This document shows, in pieces, positions 34,305 through 42,976 of a stretch of 64,000 nucleotides of DNA. Each line of letters starts with the position of its first letter. The first letter of the stretch is position 1. The stretch lies in assembly GCF_004959925.1 (NCBI RefSeq), contig NZ_SPUW01000001.1, positions 248,001-312,000 of the forward strand, read 5' to 3'. A program made the position numbers and the translations under genes. The notes beneath the pieces were generated by a model. That model had not been told where the DNA came from, made no database searches, and worked only from the letters and a program-made list of their open reading frames with translations. This stretch comes from Pseudooceanicola onchidii. GTDB taxonomy: Bacteria > Pseudomonadota > Alphaproteobacteria > Rhodobacterales > Rhodobacteraceae.

Positions 34305-34315
34305 ACACCATGCGG

Positions 34316-34337
34316 TAGGGCGGGGTTCACCCCGCCC
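34316..34337 (+). repeat. REP-like hairpin, family A, upstream of RAYT
   Basis: Full 22-base unit: GTAG, arm GGCGGGG, loop TTCA, arm CCCCGCC. It starts 12 bases after the preceding gene's stop and ends about 46 bases before the transposase start. Confidence 0.85.
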
Positions 34338-34383: not shown

Positions 34384-34941
34384 ATGCCGCGTTACATCCG
34401 CCCCCGGCACAGTGGGGCCACGATCTTCTGCACCCTTTGCCTTGCAGACCGCCGCTCCGGCCTGCTGACGCAAAACATCGACAGGTTGCGGTCCGCCGTG
34501 CTCGCCACCCTGCTCGACAGACCGGTGACGGTGGACGCATGGGTGGTGCTGCCGGACCACATGCATTTTGTCTGGACGCTGCCGGAGCGTGACGAGGCCT
34601 ATTCGATCAGGATCGCGGCCATGAAGGCGCGGTTTTCCAGGGCGATGCTTACGGCGGGGTTCATCCCGCCGCCGGTTGGCCGATGCAAGGGCGGGGTGAA
34701 CCCCGCCCTACGCCGGAAGGGAGAGATCGGTCTCTGGCAGCCCCGGTTCTGGGAGCATCACATCCGGGATCAGGCCGATTACCAGGCGCATGTCCGGTAC
34801 TGCTGGGGCAATCCGGTGAAACACGGGCTGGCAAGGCGCCCGGTGGATTGGCCATACTCGTCGATCCACCGCGATATACGCCGTGGGCTGGTCGAGGCGG
34901 AATGGTCGGCGGATGTGCCCGAAGGGGCGTTCGGAGAGTAG
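34384..34941 (+). CDS. REP-associated tyrosine transposase (RAYT)
   Basis: Single-strand DNA nuclease of the Y1/HUH class, related to TnpA_REP. The 185-residue product has the metal-binding HUH motif His59-Met-His61 in LPDHMHFVWTLP and the probable catalytic Tyr139 in YCWGNPVKHG; RFWEHHIRD and DWPYSSIHR are typical RAYT segments. Residues 90-110 are encoded by an inverted pair of the REP-like hairpins themselves, inserted in frame where relatives have a short basic linker. The stop codon TAG is part of the GTAG of a further hairpin. No clear ribosome-binding site precedes the ATG. Such genes are domesticated, usually single-copy, and linked to spread of REP hairpins. Confidence 0.9.
   Translation: MPRYIRPRHSGATIFCTLCLADRRSGLLTQNIDRLRSAVLATLLDRPVTVDAWVVLPDHMHFVWTLPERDEAYSIRIAAMKARFSRAMLTAGFIPPPVGRCKGGVNPALRRKGEIGLWQPRFWEHHIRDQADYQAHVRYCWGNPVKHGLARRPVDWPYSSIHRDIRRGLVEAEWSADVPEGAFGE
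34649..34711. repeat. Inverted REP pair inside the RAYT coding sequence
   Basis: Plus-oriented copy at 34649-34670 (leader decayed to TTAC, arms GGCGGGG and TCCCGCC with a G-T pair). Minus-oriented copy at 34690-34711 (arms GGCGGGG and CCCCGCC, loop TGAA, then CTAC). They are separated by 19 bases and stay in the transposase reading frame. Confidence 0.9.
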
Positions 34942-35100
34942 GGCGGGATTTATCCCGCCGCGCATTGGTGAGGTCGAGGCGGGGCAAACCCCGTCCTTCA
35001 GGTTATGATCGGCAAATTCATCCGGACCGTAGGGCGGGATTTATCCCGCCGTACACCGGCGAGGTTTGGCAAGGGTACGGCGGGGTGAACCCCGCCCTAC
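34938..35100. repeat. Cluster of four REP-like hairpins downstream of RAYT
   Basis: Two plus/minus pairs. Pair 1: 34938-34959 (GTAG, GGCGGGA, TTTA, TCCCGCC) and a decayed inverted copy at 34978-34999. Pair 2: 35029-35050 (plus) and 35079-35100 (minus, ending CTAC). The first copy overlaps the RAYT stop codon. Confidence 0.88.
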
Positions 35101-35120
35101 GACGCCGAGACCCCAACCGG

Positions 35121-35400
35121 GTGCTGCTCTCACGGTTTGCATCCGCAAACCGCTGCCGCACACGGCTGGAACCCAAGCGGGAACCTTAAGAAATCCTCCC
35201 TTAGCGGGAGAACTTCTTATGGTTCAGGCGCTTGGGCGCAACGGCGTCGCACTGCTGAACCGAGTGCCGCTCTCGCGGTTTGCTTCCGCAAACCGCTGCC
35301 GCGCACGCGTCGAACCGATCCGCGAACCCCAATAACTCCGTTCTAGCGAACGAATTTCTTGTGCTTCAGTCGTTTCGGTTCGACGGCATCCGGACCCAAT
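35121..35400. repeat. Diverged direct duplication spanning the ettA 3' end
   Basis: Two copies about 143 bases apart: 35121-35254 and 35264-35397. Each begins GTGCYGCTCTC, contains a hairpin (CGGTTTGC with GCAAACCG, at 35133-35152 and 35276-35295), then CGCTGCCGC, and then the ettA stop region. The second copy is joined to the intact ettA; the first ends in a 17-codon remnant. The hairpin may be the ettA transcript terminator. Confidence 0.75.
35201..35254 (-). pseudogene. Remnant of an ettA 3' end
   Basis: On the minus strand these bases read QCDAVAPKRLNHKKFSR then stop, against DAVEPKRLKHKKFVR then stop at the end of the intact ettA 142 bases away. Thirteen of the last 16 positions agree, while the DNA differs at many silent sites. 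Nothing upstream of it is ettA-like, so it is a fragment, not a gene. Confidence 0.75.
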
Positions 35401-42874: not shown

Positions 42875-42976
42875 GGGCGGGGTGAACCCCGCCCTACAAG
42901 GTGGGGTTGGTCCTGCGGTGGCGGGATAAATCCCGCCCGACGGTCATGTCTGCGGTAGGGCGGGGTTCACCCCGCC
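42875..42976. repeat. Second cluster of REP-like hairpins, family A
   Basis: Three copies after lysS: 42876-42897 (inverted, ends CTAC), 42920-42941 (inverted, leader decayed to CGAC, loop TAAA) and 42955-42976 (plus, GTAG). These match the RAYT-linked hairpins 8 kb away. Confidence 0.85.

Follow-up and report, generated by a model that had tools for sequence, protein, structure and literature searches.

The window examined here is a 64,000-nucleotide stretch of DNA from Pseudooceanicola onchidii. An open reading frame of 185 amino acids on its plus strand (34384-34941) was identified as a RAYT, or TnpA-REP, gene, with an NF047646 score of 148.9 bits against a cut-off of 80. The E. coli TnpA-REP structure 4er8, the sole RAYT structure returned by the sequence and fold searches, is the top PDB match of the protein by both routes. 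It is also the nearest fold of the AlphaFold model (E 2.5e-18; mean pLDDT 85.7), and residues 116-185 of the protein align to residues 92-161 of 4er8, with a GE end in both. The gene was missed by a simple codon-usage gene caller and its codon usage is atypical; the 'intergenic' label carried by its own REPs is an artefact of that caller. The gene, its motif codons and the REP copies in and around it are given below in window coordinates.

34315-34337, plus strand: REP upstream of the gene (repeat search and genome pattern search).
34384-34941, plus strand: RAYT / TnpA-REP gene, 185 aa (open reading frame; NF047646; 4er8 match in sequence and fold).
34558-34566, plus strand: HUH motif codons, His59-Met60-His61 (H59 and H61 are invariant alignment columns).
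34649-34670, plus strand: left in-gene REP with a degenerate leader, TTAC for GTAG (2 mismatches to the pattern).
34671-34689, plus strand: 19-nt spacer between the two in-gene REPs (sequence reading).
34690-34711, minus strand: right in-gene REP, an exact consensus GTAG hairpin (0 mismatches), whose CTAC end gives a CTA Leu codon.
34798-34800, plus strand: codon of the presumed catalytic Tyr139 in YCWGNP (Y139, N143 and P144 nearly invariant; role by homology to TnpA-REP).
34938-34960, plus strand: REP with a GTAG leader that supplies the TAG stop (repeat search and genome pattern search).
34978-34999, minus strand: degenerate REP, partner of the 34938 copy (read by eye).
35029-35051, plus strand: REP of the second downstream pair (repeat search and genome pattern search).
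35078-35101, minus strand: partner of the REP at 35029 (repeat search and genome pattern search).

The inverted REP pair inside the gene codes for residues 89/90-110 of the ORF. The original prediction, that residues 90-110 are encoded by a plus/minus pair of REP units and that the TAG stop (34939-34941) lies within the GTAG leader of the next copy, is confirmed on both counts, the pair being in frame. One small correction applies: of the two in-gene units, the right one alone is a canonical GTAG hairpin, on the minus strand, the leader of the left one being mutated. The same layout of a TAG stop taken from a REP leader was found in 111 of 234 RAYT ORFs. The 22-nt REP pattern, with at most two mismatches, occurs at 41 places in the 3.67-Mb genome and at none in a backwards-read control, so chance is an implausible source. 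None of 200 shuffles of the 72 nt inside the gene folds as well as the native sequence, either as DNA (z -4.2) or as RNA (z -4.6). An 82-nt direct repeat (35115-35196 and 35258-35339; 80% identical) adjoins the REP cluster, and each of its units holds a CGGTTTGC...GCAAACCG palindrome.

The motifs of class 2 RAYT / TnpA-REP proteins, H59-M-H61 and Y139-CWG-NP, are present and are invariant or nearly so in the alignment of relatives. As in that class, GTAG REPs lie on both sides of the gene and are repeated genome-wide at the places counted above. By similarity, rather than by subclass profiles, the window RAYT is assigned to group 2 / subclass 2.2, the E. coli type. According to the text of Quentin et al. 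2018, the insertion that separates alphaC from beta4 in subclass 2.2, which includes the E. coli protein, is short, at 10 aa (PMC6006769). The window RAYT departs from this trait of about 10 aa: it has 28 residues (88-115) where 4er8 has 4 (88-91), and it is therefore called a variant of the group. An IS200/IS605 transposase (subclass 1.1), with Y...Q and self-mobile, near-identical copies, was excluded by the Y...NP of the protein and by the other RAYT match of the genome, L002, which is 52% identical. The linker of L002 has 20 aa with no REP inside, and the REP after its stop differs from that of the window RAYT. TnpA-REP is described as processing single-stranded REP in a strand-specific manner (PMC8266576); by analogy, cleavage of its cognate single-stranded REP is a putative activity of the window protein.

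Motif alignment placed the insert between the HUH motif (H59/H61) and Tyr139, as had been proposed. In the AlphaFold model it comes after a helix at residues 73-90 (helix C) and before a strand at 123-126 (strand 4), and residues 100-112 have a pLDDT below 50. The insert is thus predicted to form a flexible loop on the surface, joining helix C to strand 4 next to the region that reads the REP. For E. coli TnpA-REP, the DNA contacts described include K82 in helix alpha3 and residues around beta4 such as Q95 (PMC8266576). By these contacts, the insert of the window RAYT would lie between a DNA-reading helix and a strand whose surroundings contact GTAG. The suggestion that the insert may change the protein receives weak support from the predicted flexibility of the loop.

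Of 235 unique RAYT ORFs of relatives, mostly Rhodobacteraceae, 127 have an extended loop at the corresponding place in the protein. A GTAG-type hairpin, defined by a GTAG leader with at most one mismatch and a 7-bp stem with at most one mismatch, is present in the linker of 122 of the 127 inserted ORFs, as against 10 of the 108 insertless ones. The insert is common among relatives, and a private accident of one genome was rejected. In many of these relatives the insert is both in frame and derived from REPs.

These ORFs come from several draws. In a family draw of 394 genomes, a RAYT match was found in 120; the loci fetched from it, with the weaker places only partly taken in, gave 121 unique ORFs, 64 of which have a linker of at least 24 aa. 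In an order draw of 244 genomes there was a match in 102, and 40 of 126 near-full-profile matches (40 of 97 genomes) exceed the profile by at least 4 aa, a count that leaves out matches split in two pieces or covering part of the profile. One locus set was chosen by similarity to the window RAYT and favours inserts (68 of 79 unique ORFs inserted). Thirteen of 293 profile matches were left out of the final ORF set (50 dropped at first, 37 recovered), and 19 loci without the motifs were dropped from the set of relatives. Some related ORFs, L003 and L046 among them, are identical to those in genomes of the genus of the window.

Outside the family, one of 83 higher-scoring matches, which are part of those over the cut-off, is at least 4 aa longer than the profile. 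In this one, G1084 (+5 aa), the 25-aa linker matches its own flanks over at most 8 nt and no REP was seen; no GTAG hairpin was present between HuH and Y in G1025 or in the weaker over-cut-off matches G1250, G1253 and G982 (+9 to +10 aa). Linkers outside the family were readable in 34 of 61 fetched loci, a few with wrong anchors. In-gene REPs outside the family Rhodobacteraceae were not seen in this sample.

Where dS could be estimated for a pair, and in many pairs it was close to saturation, dN/dS is about 0.05-0.3, which indicates that the core is under purifying selection. The low dN/dS and the conserved motifs led us to reject a decayed gene for the family. The inserts of relatives do show hairpin similarity at the DNA level and the insert-bearing genes look functional, so neither of the two outcomes named beforehand as speaking against self-targeting was encountered. 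The Y..NP pattern is absent from 41 of the 108 ORFs that have no insert and from 13 of the 127 that have one (for example L297, L301, L303 and L308). Some of these read like HLIRSAPIHAG at the place of the catalytic Tyr, and truncated ORFs are possibly among them; the pattern suggests a RAYT group without the usual tyrosine. At L034 / L184 two RAYT copies are adjacent, and a 54-nt piece of one linker is repeated in the neighbouring DNA. At L021 / L058 the RAYT ORF stops early, before the linker, with the remainder in a separate open piece.

On the core tree, which is weakly supported, the presence of the insert changes at least 26 times. Such turnover could be attributed to chance insertions of REPs, independent and frequent, into a permissive loop where they are harmless, any match with the flanks then reflecting the recent insertion of a local REP. 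The predicted flexibility of the loop, the several spacer lengths and the intragenic REPs known in unrelated genes from the text of PMC3733652 are all in keeping with such passive decoration. It is nevertheless held to be unlikely. The codon phase is nearly the same across the main REP classes, a single phase being used by 89 of 92 plus REPs and 106 of 116 minus REPs; by reading of the sequence, the common REPs have at least two open phases in each orientation. Related spacers recur within clades, as judged by eye. Of the REP copies outside the RAYT locus in the window genome, none of 33 lies inside a gene called by the simple codon-usage caller, the same one that also missed the RAYT.

Maintenance of the hairpins is visible at the DNA level. 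In a set of 155 ORFs, the Leu of the hairpin leader is encoded by CTA in 94 of 107 cases, against 1.7% of Leu codons in the rest of the same genes, and the leader Arg by AGG or AGA in 85 of 88, against 7.3% elsewhere. These codons are rare and are found at the in-gene hairpins because the REP leader forces them. The best linker hairpin reaches a score of at least 7 in 90 of the 111 ORFs with an insert and in 3 of the 44 without. When the inserted linkers were compared with synonymous recodings of their own peptide, the hairpin came out ahead at 5% in only 47 of 111, as the peptide itself predisposes to pairing. The REP classes specify their own peptides (AGFTPP/GVNPAL, VGFHPT/VGWNPTL and AGFSPP/AGLKPGL). 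A coincidence at the protein level, with no DNA similarity, was rejected on the rare codons and on matches to the genes' own flanks.

Compensatory change in the right-hand stems was scored on an alignment in which identical hairpins were entered once (27 distinct of 82), without the off-register hairpin of L104; a right-hand 22-nt hairpin of the exact shape is lacking in 45 of the 127 inserted ORFs, which fall outside this set. Cells with both sides changed number 25, against 5.8 in shuffles, and the covariation score is 0.37, against 0.10; for either measure none of 500 shuffles was as high. Of five measures of covariation, two gave weak results: 19 of 500 shuffles were as high for pairs with both sides changed, and 66 of 500 for further pair types. 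Hairpins kept in the mRNA, which would limit translation or protect the transcript, could in principle account for stems of this kind. The strong folding of the in-gene stretch as RNA agrees with this, as does the frequent transcription of REPs mentioned in PMC3733652. However, the stems vary almost solely as Watson-Crick pairs, wobble pairs making up 3 of 182 stem cells, and a role in mRNA needs no match to flanking DNA repeats. Autoregulation at the RNA level is thus considered quite improbable as the reason for the hairpins.

The in-gene REPs tend to be of the type that flanks the same gene. The six-base key of the internal REP is shared with its own flanks in 71 of 97 ORFs, where 2000 permutations gave a mean of 25.5 (sd 3.9, maximum 40); the other 26 ORFs have an internal class that their own flanks lack. 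The longest match between a linker and its own flank is 16.8 nt on average. At 60-70% core identity it is 17.0 nt, against 10.7 nt to the linkers and flanks of relatives. The gene's own flank was a better match than the flank of the nearest relative in 62 cases and worse in 28, with 7 ties; it was no better than the linker of the nearest relative (46 vs 50, p 0.11). In genes more than 80% identical, linkers match one another over 28.6 nt, their own flank over 18.8 and the relative's flank over 17.2, and inheritance therefore dominates among close relatives.

The comparison was also made in tree-disjoint pairs, for which tips were paired on the whole of the best, weakly supported core tree. In 24 such pairs with differing internal classes, own flanks were better in 16.4, worse in 2.0 and tied in 5.5 (median p 0.0013); by longest match they were favoured by 21.6 vs 1.3. 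When supported branches alone are used, at most 3 independent pairs per class are left, no test reaches 0.05, and the comparison is without power.

Gene and flanks could have moved between lineages together, so that the REPs match without any renewal in place. The atypical codon usage of the window RAYT, missed by the codon model, would fit such cassette exchange, and transfer of RAYTs between species is proposed in the text of PMC6006769. Against it, the pairs L061/L107, L064/L115 and L022/L115 are alike in the core before and after the insert and yet differ in REP class, so that change in the insert can outpace change in the core. The inserts of L061 and L115 do not match their own flanks. 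Little probability is given to joint movement of gene and flanks as the source of the match.

Several individual loci were recorded alongside. L061 has an internal REP whose exact pattern is found in its genome inside the gene only, and its flanks carry another REP. The in-gene REP class of L057 is absent from its flanks and has one copy elsewhere in its genome. L096 (genome G1276) has internal REPs that agree with its flanks; at the locus, all four copies have loops CTTG or CTCG, and the six same-stem copies found elsewhere in that genome have the loop TTCA, so the match is with the locus and not always with the REP population of the genome. REPs beside insertless ORFs are mostly of the GGTGCG and GGTGGG types, and the types GGCGGG, GCCGGG and GTCGGG occur almost exclusively in the flanks of inserted ORFs.

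The matching does not extend to the DNA between the hairpins. In 78 plus/minus units of relatives, outside which the window's own unit falls because its left leader is too degenerate, spacers match their own flanks over 8.0 nt and those of others over 7.8 nt; matching is therefore limited to the hairpins. Spacer length is one of four values in 55 of the 78, and the left and right hairpins of one gene agree at 0.93, against 0.77 when permuted. With spacers unlike the flanks, a copy of flanking DNA including the spacer is not supported. Nor is a copy of a dispersed REP pair: in a hand count (L230-L243 and window 42920-42976), 12 of 14 dispersed pairs of the window genome are minus/plus, the opposite of the plus/minus order in the gene. 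Both the opposite orientation and the flank-unlike spacers count against the simple 'BIME donor' reading offered at the outset, and the earlier interpretation as a whole is partly supported.

Taken together, the account we consider probable is that of an E. coli-like RAYT whose loop derives from an old in-frame REP pair, the hairpins being renewed or selected so as to go on matching the REPs of the locus. REPs would have been acquired in frame long ago, once or more than once, and inherited in place, in a loop that may be tolerated because it is flexible. The hairpins alone, and not the surrounding DNA, would then have been repeatedly renewed, or selected to remain cognate with the REPs of the locus. 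The source could be hairpin-limited exchange by the enzyme on single-stranded DNA, through its own cleavage and strand transfer, or selection for recognition, or both. The gene would thus belong permanently to the targets of its own product, and the enzyme may bind and cleave every copy of the gene that is single-stranded. Enzyme and REP type would be tied together in cis, and the expression or activity of the enzyme may perhaps be limited by the in-gene targets.

In-frame REPs within tnpAREP genes, generally between HuH and Y, are already in print: Quentin et al. 2018 describe them as unique to subclass 2.4 (PMC6006769). The window RAYT shares with that subclass a REP in frame between HuH and Y. 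According to the same text, subclass 2.4 (RAYT group 4) is abundant in Cyanobacteria and Bacteroidetes and has a variable insertion between beta3 and alphaC and the motif NH[IFV]H, and Alphaproteobacteria have none or few homologs per genome (PMC6006769). The window RAYT, in contrast, is E. coli-like, with its insert after alphaC, the motif DHMH and relatives mostly in Rhodobacteraceae. The text sections of PMC6006769, as distinct from its supplement, contain no test that we encountered of in-gene against flanking REPs. With E. coli TnpA-REP (4er8) the protein has in common the fold, the HUH-Tyr core, the GE-ending C-terminal tail and the GTAG REP flanks; the E. coli REPs carry a bulge, as described in PMC8266576, whereas those of the window are near-perfect palindromes.

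Rickettsia palindromic elements (RPE) are not known to have a cognate HUH enzyme. As described in PMC3733652, by which they were compared, they too are palindromic repeats within protein genes. In the text of Di Nocera et al. 2013, GTAG REPs lie wholly inside ORFs and TAG stops are supplied by a REP end (PMC3733652), so an intragenic GTAG REP and a REP-supplied TAG stop are shared with the window RAYT. The hosts there, in contrast, are DNA repair and other genes, and in the sections compared the overlaps of REPs with tyrosine transposase genes are at the 5' or 3' end only, with no mention of a REP in the middle of a RAYT (PMC3733652). Among the papers that searches of the open-licence PMC literature listed, no title or abstract start dealt with in-gene REPs in group-2 RAYTs or in Rhodobacteraceae. 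What is new here is the presence of in-frame REPs in E. coli-like RAYTs, at another site, with hairpins that track the flanks.

A REP inside the gene might also be read twice, as a DNA target and as the codons that write a loop beside the REP-reading helix and the GTAG-contacting strand. The near-invariant codon phase and the class-specific peptides are compatible with this, and the low confidence of the loop in a DNA-free model speaks neither for nor against it. We regard such double reading as highly speculative and very doubtful. If it were true, a change of REP would alter target and reader in one step, and co-evolution would be automatic.

In-frame REPs, so far described for a single RAYT subclass, are thereby shown in E. 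coli-like RAYTs as well, where they occupy another place in the protein. The results bear on two issues, the spread of REPs and the way in which a RAYT and its REPs stay matched. The RAYTs of these relatives provide an extensive natural data set: the reading frame of the enzyme contains a fixed copy of its target, and this copy nevertheless tends to keep to the REP type of the locus, apparently through replacement or selection of hairpin-sized units. Thus, co-evolution of enzyme and target may be tested with a single gene, and the in-gene hairpins would be clean substrates for assays of single-stranded DNA binding and strand transfer.
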